22,111 bases of DNA from a virus: positions 1 through 22,111 of the IMG/VR virus record IMGVR_UViG_3300020190_000389, one strand, 5' to 3'. The notes beneath the pieces were generated by a model. That model saw nothing but the letters and a program-made list of their open reading frames with translations. It did not search any database and had not been told where the DNA came from. The position numbers and the translations under genes are program-made. This document shows, piece by piece, positions 2,021-16,818 of this stretch. Every line of letters starts with the position of its first letter. The stretch's first letter is position 1.

Positions 2021-4744
2021 ATGTCATTCAATCCAATAACATCTTTACAATCAACCGATACCTTTCAGACTTTATTTACTAGAAATAATGAAGTAATAAG
2101 TCGAATTAATTCTTTAAAAATTGGAGGTATAAGTGCCGGAACTGGAATTATTATTAATGGTCCCAATAATCAAGGAGGAATAACATTAACTGTTGATTTT
2201 TCTCAAGGCACCGGCATTTCTGGTAATACTGTAATTACAATAAATGGAAATGTGCCGACAGGATTAGGTTTAAACTCTCCAATAGGAATAACTGGTGGTG
2301 TATTGGGAGCTTGTTCTACTAGTAGTTTAACTTCTTGTAGAAATTTTTTAGGATTCATATCAGACATAGCAGCATCTTCATATAAAATAACATCTAGTGG
2401 CAAAGTTTTTAACTCAAGTCTTTCTGAGAACACTTTATATTATTTAAATACCACGGGTGGTATTACTCCAACTCGTCCAACTGCAAACAACTCTATAATC
2501 AAACCGGTCTTGTTTAATATTAATTCAACATCAGGAGCAATTGTTCTACAACAAAACGAGACTCTAATAGATATTGCCTCCTCTACTTACATACAGTCAA
2601 GTTCCAGAAATATAGCTCAAATTCCTTCTAATGGTTTAGTACTAGGAGATACTGTTTATTTTGATATAGCATCTAATCAATGGAAAAAAGCACAAGCAAA
2701 TAATGCTGAAACTTCTGAAGTATTTGGTATTATCGAGTCTATCTCTGGCAGTACTGCTTCTGTAATTACTAACGGATCTATTACTACTATTCCAGCAGGT
2801 AAATTAAATAATTTAGGATCAGGTGGAGAAGGAGGAAATGATATTTGGTTTTTATCACCAACTATACCAGGATCTTTACAAAACCAAGGAGCTACATTAG
2901 CAGGACACATTGTAAAACCCGTATTTTATCAATTTCCACACACAACAGAAGGAATTGCATATACAGGTTATGTGGTAAATTACAGTGGTTATTTTGCAGG
3001 TGGGTCTGCAGCTGGCGGAGTAGCTGGTGGGGGTGGTGGTGTTACTAAAATTATAGCTGGCACTAATATTACTGTACAGCCTTCGAGTGGTTTAGGAGAA
3101 GTGACGATTAGTGCTTCTGGTGAGGGTGGGGGTGGGGGTGGTAGTATCACGACAATACAAGCAGGTTCCGGAATCCAGGTGACCGACGGTACAGGTCCGA
3201 CAGTAACAATATCAACATCAGAATCAAATCTAATTAGAATTGGAGAATTGAAACAAGTTGCATATCATGGAGCAAACAGATTTGTTTTTAAAAATTGGTT
3301 ATCTTCTGTAATTAAGGCGTCAGAAGGTGTTCAAACTAAGGCTGAAAACTGTGTTTGGTTAACTTCTTTTCCTTGTGATTTCAGAATTAGACCTGATAAT
3401 AATTATACTCAGTTTTTAGGAATCACATTTGAAGCTAACCAACTTACTCAAGCGCCGCTGCCATCTGTTCACAGATTAACTGATTCTAATTATATTGCAA
3501 TGGATGGAACATTGTATCTTGCAGAAAATCCATGGACTCCGATTACAAACGTATGGAAAGACGAATTTTCAAACGCATTACTCAGTACAGGAAATACTTT
3601 TAGTGTTCGTGATGATATTTTTACGAATCTGCCATTTCAAGGAGACGGCTCAGATAATACTACTACAGGTAAAGGAAGGACATACGAATCCGGCAGATAT
3701 CCATTAGAATTATTATGGAACAGTGGAGTAAATTCTATTGCAAGAGTACAACCTAATATAAACGAAGAAGATCCGATTGACACCAACAATATTGGAGGAG
3801 ATCTTAGTGGAGGTTCCGTTAATACCACAAGTCGTTGGAGAAGATTGATTCAATTGTGGTTTACTCAAAACGATCCGGAGGGAAACGCCTGGCCCTTAAT
3901 CAACTGGGCTAATGTGAGAGCAATATATTCAGATGAATTTAATGCCTTACTTGGTAACACTCTTATTCTTCCTGGTTCAGAAGGAGAATCCGAAATGGGA
4001 GACATACAGGATCCACTCGTAAACCCTGGTGCCTCGAATGACTGGCCTGGTGCTGGCATAGAACTTACAACATTTCGATCATCTATGGGAGGAGAAACTA
4101 ACCCGAATTATAGGAAATTTAAAAAAGAACTATTAACTTCTTTTTATCTTCCAGGATTTATGTTTCAACCTAGAACATATATAGGGGATACAAGTTCGTT
4201 TAACTCAGAAGATTCTCCTACATCTCCTGAAGAAAAAATTAAAACCAATTCGGAAGACGGAACAATTGATTTGTACTCTAACTGGATGATACACAATGCC
4301 CTACAAGATGTTCATGCAGACTGGCAAAAGATAGGATTTATTATACCAAGACAAGGTAGAGAGAAAACTAGTAATAGCGAAACTCTTGTAGATGTACCAC
4401 TCGCACAGCGCAGAGGAGGATTGTATTTTTATTCTCCTTATTATTGTATAACTGAAGGCATATGGGATTTGGATAAAGTTAATGTTCACAATTTTTTTAA
4501 AAATGTATCTAATCCACAGGTGCCGCCAGCACTACTAAATACTCCAAAAGCTATGCAATGGCATATTCGCGTAGGAGATAACACAGTGGATAATAGTCGA
4601 AAAGTTTTTCTGTTTCAACCCACATGGGTGCAACTTATTGCAGGATTAAACGGAATTCATTGTCCAGACTGGTCCAATCCAATTAGATCCGCCCAGGAGG
4701 ACTTTGCAGCTCCGCTTCCTAGAACACTGATGCGATTGTTTTAA
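2021..4744 (+). CDS. Large tail-fibre/adhesin-like structural protein with glycine-rich hinge
   Basis: A 907-residue protein preceded by a good Shine-Dalgarno (AAGGAA, 2011-2016) and a late promoter octamer. Residues 1-60 open like a trimeric fibre (SLQSTDTFQTLFTRNNEVIS, then 'GISAGTGIIINGPNN'). Residues ~60-320 are beta-rich with repeated Ile/Thr/Ser/Gly stretches. Residues ~325-376 form a flexible Gly hinge in two blocks flanking 'VTKIIAGTNITVQPSSG', a short beta repeat common in phage fibre shafts ('I-x-AG-x-x-I-x-V'). Residues ~395-907 are a large, more globular region rich in Trp, Tyr, Asn and Pro with few cysteines, and this may be the receptor-binding or enzymatic head. No catalytic motif could be recognised there. 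By position, downstream of gp8 and upstream of the collagen-like array, it is probably a baseplate-attached fibre or a replacement for gp10/gp12. The function is inferred from architecture only. Confidence 0.6.
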   Translation: MSFNPITSLQSTDTFQTLFTRNNEVISRINSLKIGGISAGTGIIINGPNNQGGITLTVDFSQGTGISGNTVITINGNVPTGLGLNSPIGITGGVLGACSTSSLTSCRNFLGFISDIAASSYKITSSGKVFNSSLSENTLYYLNTTGGITPTRPTANNSIIKPVLFNINSTSGAIVLQQNETLIDIASSTYIQSSSRNIAQIPSNGLVLGDTVYFDIASNQWKKAQANNAETSEVFGIIESISGSTASVITNGSITTIPAGKLNNLGSGGEGGNDIWFLSPTIPGSLQNQGATLAGHIVKPVFYQFPHTTEGIAYTGYVVNYSGYFAGGSAAGGVAGGGGGVTKIIAGTNITVQPSSGLGEVTISASGEGGGGGGSITTIQAGSGIQVTDGTGPTVTISTSESNLIRIGELKQVAYHGANRFVFKNWLSSVIKASEGVQTKAENCVWLTSFPCDFRIRPDNNYTQFLGITFEANQLTQAPLPSVHRLTDSNYIAMDGTLYLAENPWTPITNVWKDEFSNALLSTGNTFSVRDDIFTNLPFQGDGSDNTTTGKGRTYESGRYPLELLWNSGVNSIARVQPNINEEDPIDTNNIGGDLSGGSVNTTSRWRRLIQLWFTQNDPEGNAWPLINWANVRAIYSDEFNALLGNTLILPGSEGESEMGDIQDPLVNPGASNDWPGAGIELTTFRSSMGGETNPNYRKFKKELLTSFYLPGFMFQPRTYIGDTSSFNSEDSPTSPEEKIKTNSEDGTIDLYSNWMIHNALQDVHADWQKIGFIIPRQGREKTSNSETLVDVPLAQRRGGLYFYSPYYCITEGIWDLDKVNVHNFFKNVSNPQVPPALLNTPKAMQWHIRVGDNTVDNSRKVFLFQPTWVQLIAGLNGIHCPDWSNPIRSAQEDFAAPLPRTLMRLF

Positions 4745-4764
4745 ATAAAAACTGTAAACATATT

Positions 4765-5913
4765 ATGTCTAGTTTTGTACGAAACACATTCAATGACGGC
4801 ATAATAGGTCCAACAGGCCCAACAGGTCCTATTGGACCAATTGGTCCAAGAGGAGACACTGGAGCAAATATTTTTGGTCCAACTGGTTCTTCCATAACAG
4901 GAATAACATTAACTGATTCTCGATTGATATTTACATGGGAAAATGGATTTACAGCCAACAGTGAAACAATCAAAGGAATTACTGGACTTTGGGTTGTTCA
5001 ATTTGGCGTAACTGCACCAGACAATCAAATTATTAAAAGTTTTTCTAGAAACCCTAAAATACTGTCAAATTCTCCTACTATTACTACAAGTGATTCTTTG
5101 GTTTTAAAAACTATTCATACCAAGACTCCAGATGTAATAGAAATTAACAGAATAGAAGACAATAGAATACAAATTTCATATGTTGGATCTAGTGGAATTA
5201 CTTTAGATCAAACAAATTTAAATCAACTTGTTATTGCTACTAGTAGCAATGCATTTGATGGAGCAACAAATACAAATTGGAATCCTACTACTGGAGTTTT
5301 AGATTGGACTATAGCGCGATATGCAGAATTTACTCAAAGATTAGCAATAATCGATACCTCCTATAACATAAATGTAAACGATGGATCTGTTTTTTTATTA
5401 ATCGACGAAGGCACCAATAACGTACAGATTAATCTTACGGGAACCATACCTTCCAACCAAAGTGCTGGAATTACTATTATTATCCCGAGGACGACACCTA
5501 CTGTTACTTTTGATATAAAATCATCAGTTCTAGCGAGTAAAATAAGATTTCCGTTAATAGCACCATTACCAAAGACAGGAGTAAATATTTATACAGGAAT
5601 ATCTATCGGAAATATTTGGTATTTTTCTTGTAGTATGCTTGGTGGTATAAGTAACACTAAAACTTCATATTCTGACATAAATCCAACATTCAATCAGAGT
5701 GAAGCACTTCAGATGCTTGTAGGAAATTGTTGGAACAAATCAACTACAGACAATCCTATTTGTTCTACTTATGACCTCAATTCAGACGGCTTCATAGACG
5801 CCACCGATCTGACGTTACTTCTGTCCGCGTGGGGCGCGAACGTATTTGATTTCTATAGTGGATGTAATAGCATAAAAGGACCATCGTTTACTCGAGAGTG
5901 TATATCAGGATAA
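4765..5913 (+). CDS. Collagen-like virion protein with C-terminal dockerin-like calcium-binding motif
   Basis: A 382-residue protein. Residues 15-35 are perfect Gly-X-Y triplets (GPTGPTGPIGPIGPRGDTG), with a second short 'GPTG' at 38-41. Such phage collagen-like tracts form trimeric stalks. Residues ~45-310 are a beta-rich trunk with 'ITGITLTDSRLIFTW' and, near residue 172, 'NWNPTTGVLDW'; both recur in the 7602 protein, so the two are paralogues. Near the C-terminus D337-x-N339-x-D341-G-x-I-D345-x-x-D348 followed by 'LTLLLSAWG' is a textbook type I dockerin/EF-hand calcium loop. Only one of the two loops of a canonical dockerin is present. Cys residues flank it (GNCW, PICST, SGCN). The short coding stretch for this loop is visibly more GC-rich than the gene around it. 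No clear Shine-Dalgarno precedes the start; TTTAAATA at 4740 is a one-mismatch late octamer. Probably a virion surface fibre; the role is inferred. Confidence 0.62.
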   Translation: MSSFVRNTFNDGIIGPTGPTGPIGPIGPRGDTGANIFGPTGSSITGITLTDSRLIFTWENGFTANSETIKGITGLWVVQFGVTAPDNQIIKSFSRNPKILSNSPTITTSDSLVLKTIHTKTPDVIEINRIEDNRIQISYVGSSGITLDQTNLNQLVIATSSNAFDGATNTNWNPTTGVLDWTIARYAEFTQRLAIIDTSYNINVNDGSVFLLIDEGTNNVQINLTGTIPSNQSAGITIIIPRTTPTVTFDIKSSVLASKIRFPLIAPLPKTGVNIYTGISIGNIWYFSCSMLGGISNTKTSYSDINPTFNQSEALQMLVGNCWNKSTTDNPICSTYDLNSDGFIDATDLTLLLSAWGANVFDFYSGCNSIKGPSFTRECISG

Positions 5914-5916
5914 ATT

Positions 5917-7605
5917 ATGAAAAAACAATCCAGCAATCCTCTTAGTGCATTAAATATAAACGGATCTTGTCTTTACGAAGGACCAACAGGACCAGTATGT
6001 ATCTCAACGAATGCAGAAAAATGCCAGAGTCAATACAAAGGAGTGTTCGTAGAAGGATCAACATGTGGCTCAGCTTCTGGACTGAATGGAAGTTGTTGTT
6101 TATGGGATCCTGAAAACAAAACAATACTTCCGTGTCAAACTTCAACATTTTTAGCATGTCAGACGTTAGCCGAATCGTTTAATTTTAAATTTAATTGGTC
6201 TGTTGTTTCATGTAAAGAAAGAAAATGTGAATACGTTTTTGAATCTAAAGCATCAAGACAACCAATACTGGGTGCCTGTTGCAACGGTAACGGACTATGC
6301 AAGGAAACTACACAAGAAGATTGCGAAAACAGTCAATTCTTTTATCAGGGAAACGGTACTATATGCGACAAAGGAATTTGCATCGAAGGAACAGGAGGAT
6401 GTTGTAACGGAGTAACCTGTAATGATGGTATCACTGGAACTTATTGTGTTGAAAATAAGAGTTTATATTTAGGAAAAGGAAAACGATGTTGGGAATTTAC
6501 ATGTGAAACAAATCGACTTCCATGTTTGGACTCTATAACAACAGAAAAATTAAAAATTGGTGATCTATTCGAAGGCGGAGTTGTCGTCGGAATTTATCAA
6601 CCAGGAAATAGCAAAGGTATAGGTCCTAAATTTTTAACAAATCAAGTAGAAATAGATGATTTATTGAAATCTGAAGCAGAAACAATAGAATTAACTACTA
6701 TTGCAGATGGAAGAGGATATGGAGAAATTGAAGAGAACTTGTGTGAAATAAATTACAGTTATATTATGATTATGTCTATGAGTCCTATCGTTAATGATTT
6801 GACTAAGACAAGATATACATGGTCTAGAGATTCAAATGCTTGGGGACCGTTATTTACTTCTTGGGGAAAAATACTAGAATCTAATACAATTGATTTGAAT
6901 CTTAAAAATGAAGGATTTGTTTACAATAACGTTTTTTCGAATAAAATAAATAATAGTATTATTCGAGATAATATGGTAAATTACTGCAATAAAAGATCTG
7001 TTGGAGATGATCCGATAAAAAGACTAGATAATAGATCTACTCAAGGAATATGTGGAAAGTGGTCGACGGATTGGGGAATGTACAATACAATACGATTAAC
7101 TAATGCAAAGATTTTCGATCAAGCAGGAATAGATTATGATCAGTATTTAACTAAATCATTATACCAGAGTGGAGAAAAATTCGATTCAAATAGAATGGTT
7201 GATTTAGCAACAGCGATTTTAGAATACAATAAAACATCTACTTCTGCTAATAATCCCAACACATCAGATTGGTTTGTTGCTTCTGCAAACGAATGGGCTT
7301 ATATATTGAGAGAAATTAAATTAAATAATCTTAATGAAACTCTTATTGCAGCAGGAGCATATCCTATAACAGATATTAATTGGACTTCTACTGGAGCGTT
7401 CGATTACAAAAATTTAGAAGGAATATCAGAAACCGGAGAAACTTGTTCTGTAGGAAAGGTGGCGTTGGCAGTAAATAGTAATACAATGAAGTTTGAAATA
7501 AGAAACAGAATGGAACCTGCTTTAGCAAGACCTATACGTCTAGTTACATGTAATGGCAAATATCCCACCTCAGATTATTCTTCTCTATGGAGAATCAATA
7601 AATGA
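5917..7605 (+). CDS. Cysteine-rich repeat protein with DUF1566/C-type-lectin-like C-terminal domain
   Basis: A 562-residue protein starting 3 nt after the previous stop, with AGGA (5907-5910) as Shine-Dalgarno. Residues ~10-200 hold four to five cysteine-rich repeats, for example 'GACCNGNGLCKETTQEDC' and 'GGCCNGVTCNDGITGTYC', likely disulfide-bonded outside the cell. From about residue 213 to 555 the protein resembles the DUF1566 (Lcl C-terminal) fold, a C-type-lectin/FGE-like domain. The landmarks are 'IGDLFEGGVVVGIYQ' (~215), 'WFVASANEWAYIL' (~452), 'INWTSTGAFDYK' (~487) and 'ALARPIRLVTC' (~536). They match the family pattern G-G-x-V ... W-R-x-P-x-x-x-E-L ... W-S-S-x ... VRPVR. Such folds often bind glycans or receptors at phage fibre tips. 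Its stop overlaps the next start (ATGA at 7602). The domain call comes from motif reading, so an alternative C-lectin subfamily is possible. Confidence 0.62.
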   Translation: MKKQSSNPLSALNINGSCLYEGPTGPVCISTNAEKCQSQYKGVFVEGSTCGSASGLNGSCCLWDPENKTILPCQTSTFLACQTLAESFNFKFNWSVVSCKERKCEYVFESKASRQPILGACCNGNGLCKETTQEDCENSQFFYQGNGTICDKGICIEGTGGCCNGVTCNDGITGTYCVENKSLYLGKGKRCWEFTCETNRLPCLDSITTEKLKIGDLFEGGVVVGIYQPGNSKGIGPKFLTNQVEIDDLLKSEAETIELTTIADGRGYGEIEENLCEINYSYIMIMSMSPIVNDLTKTRYTWSRDSNAWGPLFTSWGKILESNTIDLNLKNEGFVYNNVFSNKINNSIIRDNMVNYCNKRSVGDDPIKRLDNRSTQGICGKWSTDWGMYNTIRLTNAKIFDQAGIDYDQYLTKSLYQSGEKFDSNRMVDLATAILEYNKTSTSANNPNTSDWFVASANEWAYILREIKLNNLNETLIAAGAYPITDINWTSTGAFDYKNLEGISETGETCSVGKVALAVNSNTMKFEIRNRMEPALARPIRLVTCNGKYPTSDYSSLWRINK

Positions 7606-8870
7606 CAAATATTCCTGGGAGTTCTTCTATTCCTGTGTTTCGTGGAGTTGGTCTGATCGGTTCAGTAGGACCTAATGGCCCAACCGGGCCCACTGGAATA
7701 ACTGGAAGTCCTGGACAATGTTTGCCAGGAGTAACTGGAATAGGAATTTCTGGAATAACTGTATCGGAAAATAATTTAATTTTGACTTTTGGTACTGCAG
7801 ATAATCAAGTAAATATACTTCATTCTTCAATAAAAGGAAATACCGGTACGAATAGTGTAAATGGTTCTGTTTTTAATATACAGGCAAGTTCATTGTCGGG
7901 TCATCACATATTTCAAACATTTAGTCCAGAAGAGTTTAGTACTAGATCTGTTACATTTTCAGCAAATCCTAATCAAACAAAAACACCTAAATTTTTAGGG
8001 ATTACATTCAATAACATTGATGTTATTGATGGTGCTACTTTTTATAAAATAAAAAGTCTTAAAACACTCTATAGTCCTTCTGGTTCTAGTGGTCAATTGG
8101 CTTATGTAGATCAATCGTTAGATAAATTTACAGTAAGAGGAGCCACTGGAACTTTATGGAATCCCATTACCGGTTTGCTTCGATATGTTCAAAACTACAC
8201 TAAAGAAATTGATAATTTTAGTTCTACTGATAACAGAGACAATTATAGATCTGAGAATATCAATACTATCGGGGGAACAGTAATTACTGGAGGATGGGGA
8301 AGTGGGATCACTTTTACTATACCGGTAACTACTATTTCTGGAAATACAGGACAATCAGGATTAATTGTTTCGGCTCCTACTAATATAAAAATACCATTTT
8401 TTTCTACGAATCATTCTAGTGGAAATACTGCAAATTTATTAGTAGGGGGAGCAACACTAGGTTCTTGTTTTTTGAGTACAATTCCAGATCCAAGAAAAAG
8501 ATGTGTTGATTTTATAAGTGAACCGTATTGTAAATCTATTCAAGGAAGTTGGAGCATAAATCCGTGTTCTAATAGAGAAGAAGTATTTTCTGCCGTTAAA
8601 ACTTGTTGTATATATAGTTACGAATTAGACAAAGTTACTTGTATAGAAACATTTGAATCTGAATGTTTACAGTTTATGGGATTACCTGGAAACTTAAGTA
8701 AATGTTCTGTTTACGAAGGACTAATGAAAAAATGTTCCAATTTAATAGATTTGTGTCTGGAATGTGATTCCGGACAATGTTGCTATAAAGGAATTTGTAC
8801 AGAAGAGTCAGAATATGATTGTATAACCAAAAATCCTGGGGCAGTTTGGTTTTCTGGAAAAACATGTTGA
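7602..8870 (+). CDS. Collagen-like virion protein with C-terminal cysteine-rich repeats
   Basis: A 422-residue protein overlapping the upstream stop by ATGA, so translation is probably coupled. The N-terminus reads 'GSSSI' and then a Gly-X-Y tract at about residues 17-38 (GSVGPNGPTGPTGITGSPG). The trunk, residues ~45-280, is paralogous to that of the 4765 protein: 'ISGITVSENNLILTF' and 'LWNPITGLLRYV' match 'ITGITLTDSRLIFTW' and 'NWNPTTGVLDW'. From residue ~286 the dockerin of the 4765 protein is replaced by three cysteine repeats (KRCVDF..., KTCCIY..., GQCCYKGICTEE...), each with a double-Cys or Cys start and a Gly-x-Trp/Gly-x-x-Trp-type centre. The last repeat runs to the C-terminus. The exchange of C-terminal modules on a shared stalk and trunk looks like modular evolution of a virion adhesin. 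No enzymatic motif is visible. Confidence 0.6.
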   Translation: MTNIPGSSSIPVFRGVGLIGSVGPNGPTGPTGITGSPGQCLPGVTGIGISGITVSENNLILTFGTADNQVNILHSSIKGNTGTNSVNGSVFNIQASSLSGHHIFQTFSPEEFSTRSVTFSANPNQTKTPKFLGITFNNIDVIDGATFYKIKSLKTLYSPSGSSGQLAYVDQSLDKFTVRGATGTLWNPITGLLRYVQNYTKEIDNFSSTDNRDNYRSENINTIGGTVITGGWGSGITFTIPVTTISGNTGQSGLIVSAPTNIKIPFFSTNHSSGNTANLLVGGATLGSCFLSTIPDPRKRCVDFISEPYCKSIQGSWSINPCSNREEVFSAVKTCCIYSYELDKVTCIETFESECLQFMGLPGNLSKCSVYEGLMKKCSNLIDLCLECDSGQCCYKGICTEESEYDCITKNPGAVWFSGKTC

Positions 8871-8884
8871 GTCAATTTTTTTAG

Positions 8885-8892
8885 TATAAATA
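8885..8892 (+). promoter_or_regulatory. T4-type late promoter (TATAAATA) for the giant gene
   Basis: An exact TATAAATA in the 114-nt gap between the 8870 stop and the 8985 start, the largest non-coding gap in the array. T4 geometry predicts transcription starting at about A8898, one base before ATG 8899. Confidence 0.65.
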
Positions 8893-8898
8893 ATTAAA

Positions 8899-8985
8899 AT
8901 GAAACTAGAATATAATACACGATCACTTAAAACTAATTTTAGTGTGGTTATTTTTGAAATAATTAACAAGAAAGACTTAATATAA
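8899..8985 (+). CDS. 28-residue upstream ORF (possible leader peptide), overlapping the giant gene start
   Basis: ATG at 8899 opens a 28-codon frame (MKLEYNTRSLKTNFSVVI and ten further residues) ending in TAA at 8983-8985, which shares its last A with the ATG of the giant gene (TAATG). There is no Shine-Dalgarno ahead of it. With the late promoter at 8885-8892 the transcript would begin about one base upstream, so translation would be leaderless. The giant gene itself lacks a strong Shine-Dalgarno, so stop-start coupling from this ORF could set its translation. The sequence matches no family I recognise, and its short length means it may be a chance frame. Confidence 0.35.
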   Translation: MKLEYNTRSLKTNFSVVIFEIINKKDLI

Positions 8986-11900
8986 TGCCTCCTGGTAGTG
9001 ACACGGGTAGTGGTGGACCTATATTTGGCGGCGGAGGCGGCGGAGGCGGCGGAGGCGGCGGAGGCGGAGGCGAAGGCGGCGGGCCGAACCCCGGCAATTG
9101 CCAGTTCGCCTGCTCATGCGATCGATATGCGTACATATGCTGCATATTCGGTTGCTGCCCGCTCGCTGGGGGGGACGGGTTCCATGGCGACTGCGATCTT
9201 TGGCTTACGTATGTAAACAAAAACGGCTTTGGCCCCCAAAATAGAATTAGTTGTGGGACCTCAAATCCGCCCTCCTCCACTGTGATTCAAACATGTGCGC
9301 CGTACGGAGAACCCTTTGTCAGAATTCCGCCCGAGAACAGGCCGCCGGGCGCGAGCCGATTCTGGGGGTTTGCAAAAAAACTAGGCAGTTATTGTGGTCC
9401 GATACATGTACTACGTGGCATCTTCGGCTCGCAGACAGACTGTTGCCGCCCTCCCTGCGCGATGCAGCACCAGGAATGTAATATGGCGTGCTTAGAATCG
9501 GGCACACCTGATGACTACTGCCATAATTATTCAGTTAAAACATATTTAACTACTTCTGGAATTAATCCGTATCGTGGAATACATTATGAAGCAACAGATA
9601 AACAATTGATTCCTCAATCGTACACAGGAACAACATTATACGGAATATACGCATCTGTTATTCCTGGAACCACATTTCCTTGGTGTGTAATCGGTACAAC
9701 ATCCTCCAGTATTAATCCGTGTTTTCCTGTGTTCGGTGACACCGAACAGTGTTATGTTTGTAAAAATATAAATACAAAGTTTATTTCTCCTAGTGTATTC
9801 AATACCAATACTATTTTGGGAAAACGATCCATAGGACAGGGTATAAATGGTGCCCCCTCGCCTGTTTCGCAAAATATTTTTACTTTTAATTCAATATTTG
9901 ACCAACAGCAACTCAAGAACATTGAAAAAATTGGAAGTAATCCTTTCTATTCTATCTCAACAAATAGACAATTCCAAACACTTGGAGTAATGAATCATGC
10001 CAAATATATAAACTCCTTTTCTTATTTTGGACTTACTGGATTGGGATGGAAGAATTTGAATATGGTTAGAGGAGTTCCTATTCCATTTAATTTTCCGAAT
10101 TTTGACTCGAACGACGCAACAAAACCCCTCTTTTCAAACGGATTTAATAATTCCATAGAAATAACTGCGGGCGACACTGCAACAGCATTCATAACACCGA
10201 ATTACATCCAGGCAGCACAAGGAAAAACTTTTTTCTGTGTTATAAATTCTAACGATTGTTCTGTTATAACAGATCATTCTACAGAACTTCCTGGAGAACA
10301 TCCCGATACAGTCGATGATCCGAATTACGGGCGTCCATATAAGCATTGGTGTCATATATTGAGAGATCAGGGATATGAAAGCATAAACCCAGCAGGAATA
10401 ACAAATAGAACTCTTGACGACTTATCTTTTAATAAATTAAGATATGCAAATAATTTAGGTGGTATAATCCAAGATTCCGATAGAATTATAGCTCGAGCTG
10501 AAACGGAACTCAGAGAAATAAGCGAAGAAAGCAACAGAATACCGCACTACATTAGTGGTAATTTTACAGAAACTGGTGAAGGAGATGTATTTGCAAGGAT
10601 ATGGAACGCACCTCATGTAAATCCTTATAGGTCTTTTGGATTTGATTATTATCGTGTATTCGAAACGTCATCAGGAATATCGTATCAGGCTAATTATAAA
10701 GATTTTCCTGATGGAGTATTTGGAGTAAGACCTGATTTATTTATTTCACGAATAATAACTAGAAATTGTCGAACTGATGGTAATTTATTTCCTATTGGAT
10801 ATGGAACAACAGCAGATTTACAAAATAATACTAGTTGTAATACTCATCAGTGGTTAGGCTGGGACAATTGGGGAATCACCAATCCATTTGAGCATTACAA
10901 AAATACAAATTGTGATAGCGACAACTTCAATCCTTCTAGATTTTATTATAATCAAATTTCTTTAGGAAATCAACACGGATTAGTATCACTTGGAATAGTT
11001 CCCGATGTAGCGGACGAAGCAGATTTCGTATATAAGAACCCTATTTCTGATATTAATTTTAAGCAAAGAGAAAAAAACATAAGATACTTGATACAATTTT
11101 CTGGTAAAGAAGTTTCGCCGTTACCAACTGACGGGATTTCTCGTTGGTCTACGGAACAGCTTGATCTTGCAGATGCTGGTAGTATTAATTTGTCATCATA
11201 TCCTGTTTCGAAATTTCTGAATCAACCAATCGAGGATGAAATATCGTATAGGATTTTTAATTTTACTGGTAGTTCTCCAGATAGAATCTGTAGTATAGAA
11301 GTTACAGGCGGATTAACCTTTGATGATATAACAGAAGATTTTTGTAGACTGAGTCATAAGTCTATCCAAGCAATTCCTCATTTAATTAATAAAAGTCTAT
11401 TAAGAGAATACGTTGGATTTGTCGGTGCAACTGTACGAAACGCAGGTTTTAATACTGAGGCGCATCCTATATGGAAACCGAGTCATAAACCGCCGATAGT
11501 ACATATATTAGACGCAGAAGGAATCGCCACACTAATTATAAAAAAGACAAATCCGGGTGCATTATATCCAACTAGTATTGGTTTATATAGAAATGCCAGT
11601 TGGAATTGGATTAGTGCCGGAACTAGTGGAAATAACTGTGCAGTTTTAGCATACACCCATGATAATAAGAGAATTCATAAGTTTTTATGTTGGGGTTCTC
11701 GGTACAACATACCAAATCCGGATCCAAAACATTGGCCAACTGGTATCTCTTTTCAAGAACACACAACTTCTTCTAATATTTGCACAGCTGGATTAACAGA
11801 AGACTGGAAACCATGTCAAGTAGATGTGACGATTGATACTCCTATATTTTATTTGAAAACTTATCCGTTTTCTAGTTATTGGATACGCTCTGAGAAAAAT

Positions 11901-13190
11901 CCATCAAGTTTTCCTCAAATTCCATCCAATGGACCCTTATCTTCTCAATTAATATTTAACACAAGAGCAAAAGTTATAACAAAATCACATAATAATGATA
12001 CATGGATTAAACATGAAAATCAGGCGTTTGGTCCTCCTATATATTTTAATTTTTATCAAAAATCTGATGATACAAAAGATTTTTTTAAGAAATTCAATAC
12101 TCCAAACGGAAAAGACTTATTTAATAATCATCTAAGTACTATATACAGAACCTTTGAGACTATTAGTGATATATTTGGTGCAAAAAATTATCCAGACTTA
12201 CCCACATATCTAGAGGTTAAAGGAAATAATAACTTATCAAACCTGTTTACGGGAGCTACTTTTCAGAACTGGGATTCTTCTTTATTAGGTCATCCTGGTA
12301 CAACATCAGGAATCACTTTTGTCGGATTCGATAATTCGTATATTCCTGTATCCAGTCATACAGATTACAAAGAGAGTCCTGCAACTTATTTGTCTAATAA
12401 TCTATATTTACCGTCATGGACTCCAAATTATCCGTTAGTGAGTGGTGGTGCTCATTTATTAAATATACTAAATCCGGGTTCTACCTATACATGTGGTTGT
12501 GGTGGAGGACAAACAGGTTGTTGTATTTCTGTTAGCGGTTGTACTATAGATGTTGAATGGGCATGCAAAACTATAGGAGGAACATGGAGTCCTGGATCTT
12601 GCCCGACTACATGTAATTGTAACCCCCTAAATACTAATCCGACAACTCTTTCATTCAACGAATCTGAAGGAACTCAGAACGTAATACTCGGTCAGACAGA
12701 TCCATTATGTCAGTGGACTGTATCTGTACCCGGAAATTGTCTATGGATCACTGCTCCAACGACAGGAACTAGTACTAGTATTTCAGTATCAGTAGAACAA
12801 AATTCAACGACAACTACTAGAACATGTACAATTACTGTTACGGCAAGTAATGCTACTAAATCCATAACAGTAACCCAAACGGGAACAGGAGGAGGATCAA
12901 ATACTGGAGCGTGTTGTTTACCGGATGGTTCTTGCGTTGATTCTGTGACTCAGACCGAGTGTAACACACAGAGCGGCAATTACCGTGGCAACAATACAGT
13001 TTGCTCGCAGCAAAACTGTGGTAGTGGTGGTGGTGGTGGTGGATTTATAGACTGTTGTGATTATTTTGTAGGTCCTTGTTGTAAAAACAATAGTTGTGCG
13101 GAAAATACAACTCCACAAGAATGTTATACTGCTAAAGGTATATTTTTAGGATTTAATCGAACTTGTGACGATTGTCCAACAACGAGTTAA
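8985..13190 (+). CDS. Giant modular virion protein: poly-Gly/Cys-rich head, BACON-like domain, Cys-rich repeats
   Basis: A 1401-residue protein, the largest in the window. Residues 1-38 are almost pure glycine after a short start. Residues ~38-178 are very cysteine-rich (CSC, ICC, GCC, DCC, PPC), and this N-terminal coding stretch (to about 9520) is strikingly GC-rich against the AT-rich remainder. Residues ~180-1180 are a long region of unknown fold rich in Asn, Tyr, Ser and Pro; within it 'ISAGTSGNNCAVLAY' followed by 'KFLCWGSRYN' (~residues 876-910) resembles one RCC1-type blade. Residues ~1180-1210 hold a cysteine repeat (TGCCISVSGC ... GGTWSPGSC). Residues ~1216-1301 look like a BACON Ig-fold domain: 'TLSFNESEGTQNV', 'CQWTVSVP', 'CLWITAPTTGT', 'CTITVTASNATKSITVTQTG'. 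BACON domains bind glycans or mucin in phages and gut bacteria. Residues ~1307-1401 hold two more cysteine repeats separated by a Gly run. Probably a large surface adhesin; the function is inferred. Confidence 0.6.
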   Translation: MPPGSDTGSGGPIFGGGGGGGGGGGGGGGEGGGPNPGNCQFACSCDRYAYICCIFGCCPLAGGDGFHGDCDLWLTYVNKNGFGPQNRISCGTSNPPSSTVIQTCAPYGEPFVRIPPENRPPGASRFWGFAKKLGSYCGPIHVLRGIFGSQTDCCRPPCAMQHQECNMACLESGTPDDYCHNYSVKTYLTTSGINPYRGIHYEATDKQLIPQSYTGTTLYGIYASVIPGTTFPWCVIGTTSSSINPCFPVFGDTEQCYVCKNINTKFISPSVFNTNTILGKRSIGQGINGAPSPVSQNIFTFNSIFDQQQLKNIEKIGSNPFYSISTNRQFQTLGVMNHAKYINSFSYFGLTGLGWKNLNMVRGVPIPFNFPNFDSNDATKPLFSNGFNNSIEITAGDTATAFITPNYIQAAQGKTFFCVINSNDCSVITDHSTELPGEHPDTVDDPNYGRPYKHWCHILRDQGYESINPAGITNRTLDDLSFNKLRYANNLGGIIQDSDRIIARAETELREISEESNRIPHYISGNFTETGEGDVFARIWNAPHVNPYRSFGFDYYRVFETSSGISYQANYKDFPDGVFGVRPDLFISRIITRNCRTDGNLFPIGYGTTADLQNNTSCNTHQWLGWDNWGITNPFEHYKNTNCDSDNFNPSRFYYNQISLGNQHGLVSLGIVPDVADEADFVYKNPISDINFKQREKNIRYLIQFSGKEVSPLPTDGISRWSTEQLDLADAGSINLSSYPVSKFLNQPIEDEISYRIFNFTGSSPDRICSIEVTGGLTFDDITEDFCRLSHKSIQAIPHLINKSLLREYVGFVGATVRNAGFNTEAHPIWKPSHKPPIVHILDAEGIATLIIKKTNPGALYPTSIGLYRNASWNWISAGTSGNNCAVLAYTHDNKRIHKFLCWGSRYNIPNPDPKHWPTGISFQEHTTSSNICTAGLTEDWKPCQVDVTIDTPIFYLKTYPFSSYWIRSEKNPSSFPQIPSNGPLSSQLIFNTRAKVITKSHNNDTWIKHENQAFGPPIYFNFYQKSDDTKDFFKKFNTPNGKDLFNNHLSTIYRTFETISDIFGAKNYPDLPTYLEVKGNNNLSNLFTGATFQNWDSSLLGHPGTTSGITFVGFDNSYIPVSSHTDYKESPATYLSNNLYLPSWTPNYPLVSGGAHLLNILNPGSTYTCGCGGGQTGCCISVSGCTIDVEWACKTIGGTWSPGSCPTTCNCNPLNTNPTTLSFNESEGTQNVILGQTDPLCQWTVSVPGNCLWITAPTTGTSTSISVSVEQNSTTTTRTCTITVTASNATKSITVTQTGTGGGSNTGACCLPDGSCVDSVTQTECNTQSGNYRGNNTVCSQQNCGSGGGGGGFIDCCDYFVGPCCKNNSCAENTTPQECYTAKGIFLGFNRTCDDCPTTS
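9026..9085 (+). repeat. GGC-GGC-GGA tandem repeat encoding poly-glycine
   Basis: A short tandem array based on the nine-base unit GGCGGCGGA, repeated about four times and then degenerating through GGAGGC and GAAGGC. It encodes roughly 15 consecutive glycines, then Glu and three more Gly. It stays in frame, so length changes by whole codons would be tolerated. Repeated GG runs on the coding strand could stack as G-quadruplex-like structure. Confidence 0.8.
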
Positions 13191-16353: not shown

Positions 16354-16818
16354 ATGGGATGTGGTTGTAATAAAAATAAAAACTCTGAAAAATCCTGCAC
16401 TGGCACGGATTGTCCGTCAACAAAAGTAGCAAAAGAAATTACAATTCAACATCTGATTGAACCCGTTTCTAATATAAATACTCGTAGTGTTCCTGTTTGG
16501 TTAAAACAAAAAGGTTATAATATGGATCAAGAATTTAAAAAACGAGAAGTGGCGCCTTCAAATCCGATTGCAAAAGGATTTGGAATGGCAACAAGTTTTA
16601 TTAATGCAATAGCTTCTAAAGGAGTTAACAGCGAAAAAGTAAACATTCCCTTAAAACAATTACGAGTATTGAGTTGTTTTGGGAATAAAGATTCTGGTGG
16701 AGTATTGCCTGCTTGTGAATACCTACAAACAAGTGCGACACCAGGAAAATTCTTTTGTGGAGGATGTGGTTGTGGAGATAAGCCTCTTACTTGGTTAAAC
16801 GGCACTGCAGACGAATAG
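16354..16818 (+). CDS. Small cysteine-cluster protein (hypothetical), probably truncated by a frameshift
   Basis: A 154-residue protein starting 'MGCGCNKNKN', with further Cys pairs (CTGTDC), a central Cys (LSCFGNKDSGG, ACEYLQ) and a dense C-terminal cluster 'FFCGGCGCGDKPLTW'. The spacing suggests bound metal, zinc or iron-sulfur, but this is not demonstrated. No membrane segment or signal peptide is visible. It lies between the lectin-like array and the neck genes, and its role is unknown. It ends at TAG 16816-16818, while the -1 frame carries on with '...DYPKLACPLQMPGFSNY', another Cys/Pro segment that looks like a natural continuation. The stop may therefore be bypassed by -1 frameshifting or result from a one-base loss. 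No Shine-Dalgarno is obvious before the ATG. Confidence 0.55.
   Translation: MGCGCNKNKNSEKSCTGTDCPSTKVAKEITIQHLIEPVSNINTRSVPVWLKQKGYNMDQEFKKREVAPSNPIAKGFGMATSFINAIASKGVNSEKVNIPLKQLRVLSCFGNKDSGGVLPACEYLQTSATPGKFFCGGCGCGDKPLTWLNGTADE
16794..16800 (+). promoter_or_regulatory. Candidate -1 frameshift slippery heptamer G_TTA_AAC
   Basis: The heptamer is in register (TTA AAC codons of the 16354 gene) inside the only interval where a shift to the -1 frame avoids both stops: the -1 frame is open from 16782 and the 0 frame closes at 16816. GTTAAAC is a used slippery site in some RNA viruses. No strong stimulatory stem is evident downstream. Confidence 0.3.

Follow-up and report, generated by a model that had tools for sequence, protein, structure and literature searches.

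Foreign codon usage at a putative N-terminal exchange slot in a virion-type gene of a T4-like phage

Tail-fibre genes of phages combine a shared body with an interchangeable end, and the variation is usually C-terminal. In the account of PMC12529663, the gp38 adhesins of T-even phages have five glycine-rich motifs alternating with four hypervariable segments.

The DNA analyzed here, referred to as the window, is a stretch of 22,111 nucleotides from a virus (IMG/VR record IMGVR_UViG_3300020190_000389, positions 1 to 22,111). The gene at 8985-13190 (plus strand, as are its parts, the island at 5719-5898 and the gene 7602-8870 described below) encodes a structural-type protein of 1401 aa, in which the open reading frame, the relatives of the body and a BACON match distinguish a variable head, a family-specific body, a BACON-like domain and a Cys-rich tail. 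The start of this virion-type gene is likely an N-terminal exchange slot, where the protein module encoded by 9027-9521 has recently taken the place of a previous head; both the route of transfer and a role at the surface are what we infer.

The phage is T4-like. Terminase, neck and sheath-stabiliser genes of T4 type are found in order, and among the matches listed (15 of 2518 records) those closest to the terminase, at about 53-57%, belong to Synechococcus T4-like phages. Neighbouring genes match PHROG neck, head-closure, Hc2, tail-sheath-stabiliser and baseplate-wedge families, and the 8985 gene sits between a baseplate-wedge-like gene and the neck/terminase genes. The N-terminal slot is preceded by a collagen-like, Cys-rich gene (7602-8870) conserved in four lineages (50, 42 and 36% identity in alignments), and followed by the conserved body and the Cys-rich tail. 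The motif TATAAATA, which we take to resemble a T4 late promoter, resides in the intergenic DNA before the gene (8885-8892). Intergenic space ahead of the slot gene is nearly zero in L013 and L009, two of the related contigs described below.

Composition and codon usage of the gene

Among the compositional features of the window, a GC step at 8987-9522 stands out as the strongest. This is the top-scoring GC-rich segment of the 22,111 bases, with a score of 71.8, the maximum and mean in 200 first-order Markov sequences being 17.2 and 9.2. GC over 400 bases peaks at 0.59 in the stretch starting at 8991 (mean of all 400-base stretches 0.348, sd 0.047). Of the six 30-codon blocks of 8985-9524, five have a GC3 of 0.50-0.73 and the poly-Gly block has 0.43. 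Blocks past 9524 range from 0.00 to 0.50, mostly 0.1-0.3, and the single block reaching 0.50 downstream of the head is 12945-13034.

The step is synonymous in nature. Given its residues and the codon usage of 12 other genes of the window, taken as reference, the head (8985-9524) should have a GC content of 0.453, and the observed value is 0.580 (z 12.8; all z values assume that codons are independent). When most of the poly-Gly run is left out (9075-9524), z is 12.2. The body (9525-12899), which is common to related phages as judged by alignments, has native codon usage, the observed GC being 0.352 vs. 0.350 expected (z 0.5). GC3 is 0.56 in the head and 0.22 in the body, and the TGC/TGT ratio is 12/5 in the head vs. 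3/25 in the body. The synonymous excess persists after correction for amino acids, and the GC step is therefore not an effect of Cys and Gly content alone. The original prediction of a GC-rich stretch at about 9000-9525, reverting to AT-rich DNA within one reading frame, holds for both base composition and codon usage. Its description of the encoded segment as packed with CC and CxC motifs is correct as to Cys richness (150 residues contain 17 Cys and three CC motifs) and slightly strong otherwise, a single CxC being present.

The maximal amino-acid-corrected foreign segment spans 9027-9521 (codons 15-179, 165 codons), and includes a poly-Gly part followed by a Cys-rich part. Codons 1-14 (8985-9026) fall outside this segment and are native in style. 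The poly-Gly tract (9027-9079) is made of a 9-base unit, GGCGGCGGA, found in 4.6 perfect copies at 9027-9067, and may be a joint or linker. GC content by codon position is 0.51, 0.56 and 0.58 in the head, which denotes little periodicity. The gene's own frame is the sole open one of six across the head, and an out-of-frame or inverted origin of this DNA was rejected, as the other five frames carry 3 to 5 stops each in 9081-9525.

A sliding scan corrected for amino acids (1086 intervals of 36 codons each in the 16 listed genes) gave z above 4 at three places. Peak values are 9.5 for the head, 5.0 for 12909-13052, likewise within the 8985 gene, and 5.1 for 5737-5898 of the gene 4765-5913. The interval 6277-6384 has a z of 4.0, and weaker ones (z 3.1-3.9) are found in the genes starting at 2021, 4765, 5917, 8985 and 17037. 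Codon usage and the scan delimit a second, smaller island at 12945-13016, encoding a GACCLPDGSC-type Cys module between Gly runs. A BACON domain (PF13004) lies at residues 1246-1298 of the same protein (E 9.3e-8, 32.4 bits, Pfam cut-off 25). The third island (5719-5898) is at the end of the gene 4765-5913, and overlaps a dockerin type I-like stretch (5716-5820). The Dockerin_1 match (E 0.0015, 19.1 bits) is under the Pfam cut-off of 22.9, and a single calcium-loop-like repeat was seen by eye. By eye, a dockerin-like stretch was also noticed in the counterpart gene of L055 and L056, and is absent in L058, where presumed IPT/TIG-like repeats take its place.

Heads and additional modules in related phages

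Relatives were found by scans with gp13 (26 loci) and by alignment of the body (7 contigs). The latter comprise the window's twin, L012 and L013, L009 and L041, L040, and L014. Proteins are identical within the L012/L013 pair and within the L009/L041 pair, here represented by L013 and L009. L014 begins inside the body, so that heads are visible in six of the seven contigs, corresponding to four lineages. Aligned bodies are 22-37% identical to that of the window. ORFs were listed for 7 of the 26 gp13 loci (L009, L012, L013, L014, L025, L031 and L033), and other large genes occupy this region in L025, L031 and L033.

The four lineages carry four Cys/Gly-rich heads at the equivalent site, ranging from 74 to about 354 residues. 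The window head (about 180 codons, 17 Cys) and the L013 head (74 codons, 9 Cys, z 9.1) have foreign codons. Codon usage is nearly native in the L009 head (108 codons, 15 Cys, z 2.0) and in the L040 head (about 354 codons, 65 Cys, z -0.6), the limits of these two having been placed by eye where the Gly- and Cys-rich stretch ends. A separate Cys-rich ORF of 274 aa precedes the L040 head (z 2.9). Compared with the z of the window body, that of the L009 body is 1.4 and that of the L013 body 4.1, spread over 926 codons. No significant match was detected by blastp when heads and additional modules were compared with each other.

Variation is not restricted to the N-terminus. At the site of the window island 12945-13016, L013 carries an unrelated GC-rich module and L014 none. 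The L013 C-terminal module (5629-5824) is Cys-containing, placed between Gly runs and foreign in codon usage (z 10.9 for 5635-5823). L009 has a codon-foreign insertion (3394-4236, extending to about 4247; z 10.6), and past this point the gene is divided between two ORFs (1281 and 473 aa). Inspected by eye, the end of the insertion is similar to that of a neighbouring gene in L056 (1899 aa). Gly runs adjoin the left edge of the window head, the right edge of the L013 and L009 heads, and both edges of the L013 C-terminal module; such a run is lacking at the right border of the window head.

Bodies align and heads are unrelated, so that the lineages have the slot in common but not its contents. 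This pattern suggests that modules have been replaced repeatedly at a single N-terminal site. The window head looks like one of the most recent replacements. The near-native L009 and L040 heads fit older captures, local origin being the alternative. The sharp borders of the window head, its foreign codons and the unrelated heads of its relatives support the putative acquisition of a module from a GC-richer source. A single recent graft from a GC-rich donor had been proposed for this locus; foreign codons, sharp borders and a GC-richer source agree with the proposal. A one-off event is not supported, since L013 has its own step and Cys-rich heads are found in two further lineages. A relative with the same GC step had been regarded as an argument against acquisition. 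L013 does show a step at the equivalent site, but with a different head; together with the near-native Cys-rich heads of two lineages, this points to an old slot whose content is exchanged, and shifts the reading from one graft to repeated replacement. The label exon-like has no basis beyond the size of the module, which is that of a domain.

Cys-rich products are encoded elsewhere in these phages. In L009, about 40 consecutive prolines and, after them, a Cys-rich stretch are encoded near the end of another structural gene (7700-8237, GC content about 0.6). L033 contains a 1634-aa ORF (2695-7599) with a collagen-like start and very rich in Cys, which represents the extreme of this style. The 1424-aa gene of L025 (704-4978), found in a lineage with an 82% identical gp13, encodes a product which by eye presumably holds a formylglycine-generating-enzyme/C-type-lectin-like stretch.

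Origin of the modules and alternative explanations

The window head is an orphan domain. Its own twin was the only match in IMG/VR, none of 28 candidates from GTDB contigs was confirmed, and no relative was found in INPHARED, PLSDB, Pfam, PHROGs, NCBIfam and PDB. At the nucleotide level, 8871-9534 has one match in INPHARED, which is 34 bases long (query positions 17-50) and located outside the head. The gene as a whole matches no PHROG or NCBIfam family, and Pfam reveals BACON domains only. AlphaFold models of the head (mean pLDDT 36.8) and of a 617-residue piece of the body, obtained with five sequences (mean pLDDT 33.3), were unusable. Ten of 294 Planctomycetota-type genomes, a set covering one phylum type with the phylum inferred, weakly match the head (E 3.3e-4 to 0.0096). 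Stops interrupt the two best matches, genomes G002 and G253 have no match to the head, and the weak matches are taken as chance. The protein search for relatives of the head thus leads to the twin only, and the collections searched yielded no donor.

Other modules gave clearer results. A Planctomycetia MAG (L042) has a match to the L013 C-terminal module (47%, E 4e-10), in an ORF that is an array of such repeats. The module has matches in 3 of the 294 genomes, the best (60% identity, E 4.2e-12) being in G002, the MAG's own genome; no phage or plasmid match was detected. The window module 12921-13034 matches 2 of the 294 genomes (44%, E 6.6e-5) and the dockerin-like end 5 of them (46%, E 1.2e-6). 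G002 and G253 are present in all three match lists; one G253 ORF combines GACCLPDGSC repeats with dockerin-like repeats, and another G253 locus has a GC content of 0.65-0.67. The L009 insertion has no match in the set. One foreign-codon module of L013 and two of the window resemble, by these matches, secreted-protein modules of Planctomycetota-type genomes, which represent a possible kind of source rather than the donor itself. For the window head, the set offers no credible match.

The acquisition of the head was weighed against other explanations. An abrupt step and a head with no relative in the collections searched could also result from a GC-rich fragment fused to an AT-rich phage contig during assembly. 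The IMG/VR contig IMGVR_UViG_3300021376_003021 (19,957 bases) begins 3.1 kb farther upstream, ends near window position 16,817, and matches the window over 16,817 aligned bases at a rounded 100% identity, both borders being spanned. The same junctions in a second contig with different ends make a random chimera unlikely, although the two records may share reads or stem from related samples. The frame moreover remains open through 1401 codons, and L012 and L013 bear a different GC-rich head at the equivalent site, which makes an assembly artefact very improbable. That the head is native, and GC-rich merely through its Cys, Gly and Pro codons, holds for L040 and mostly for L009, but is hardly credible for the window, where the excess survives correction even outside most of the poly-Gly run and extends to the choice between TGC and TGT.

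The weak periodicity of GC by codon position would be in line with DNA maintained for RNA or DNA structure, such as a regulatory RNA or an internal element, rather than for protein. The folding energy of the stretch equals that of shuffled sequences (z 0.07), and the lone Rfam match is sub-threshold (E 0.48) and ends at 8987, ahead of the stretch. On these grounds an RNA element was rejected, and a structural role of the nucleic acid, with the gene's own frame alone open, is highly improbable. More weight is given to the possibility that heads derive from phages of different GC content, and not directly from bacterial genes. Tail genes are usually acquired by exchange between phages, and the bacterial matches concern modules other than the window head. 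Yet the head has no match in phages or viral contigs beyond the twin, and the L013 C-terminal module has a Planctomycetia match and none in phages or plasmids; exchange between phages seems unlikely, though a tenable alternative.

Proposed mechanism and comparison with known systems

According to the preferred reading, replacement of modules at the slot, new modules would enter through illegitimate or Gly-linker-assisted recombination. Genes of bacterial surface or secreted proteins, or other phages that have acquired such modules, would be their source, and captured modules would drift toward the codon usage of the phage. Poly-Gly tracts at module edges may provide flexible linkers and also sites at which recombination occurs. 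The slot protein may be part of a tail fibre or a baseplate decoration, and the head may be a surface domain stabilised by disulphides or metal, the exchange of which would change what the virion sticks to. Because of the gene neighbourhood, the BACON domain and the exchange itself, the predicted role of the head is probably at the virion surface or in adsorption. A broader scenario, in which a dedicated slot repeatedly captures bacterial extracellular domains, notably from Planctomycetota, and the particle is decorated with these borrowed Cys-rich repeats and dockerin-like ends to stick to hosts or bacterial aggregates, is doubtful.

Several apparent stages of one process are found side by side, foreign- and near-native-codon modules occupying one site of one phage gene. 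Recent domain capture in phage structural genes may be detected from sequence alone, with the indication of an unexpected type of source. If heads bind hosts, the slot would provide a natural series for how phages gain attachment domains.

The slot gene shares with gp38 adhesins variable stretches adjoining glycine-rich ones in a T4-type background (PMC12892980, PMC12529663). In gp38, as presented in these reports, variable segments or loops belong to one fold, whereas in the window family whole unrelated Cys-rich modules vary at the N-terminus, two of four with foreign codons. Gly runs adjoin the exchanged modules, but not in the five-motif, four-segment order outlined in PMC12529663. Pfam, PHROGs and NCBIfam reveal no sequence relation of the window gene to gp38 adhesins or known phage tail-fibre families, and the slot gene may be regarded as similar to gp38 in kind, not as a family member by sequence. 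A limited check of the literature found no description of such a slot. As in the mosaic exchange of tail fibres, a shared body is joined to unrelated, interchangeable ends; the variable end of the slot gene differs in being N-terminal and Cys-rich.
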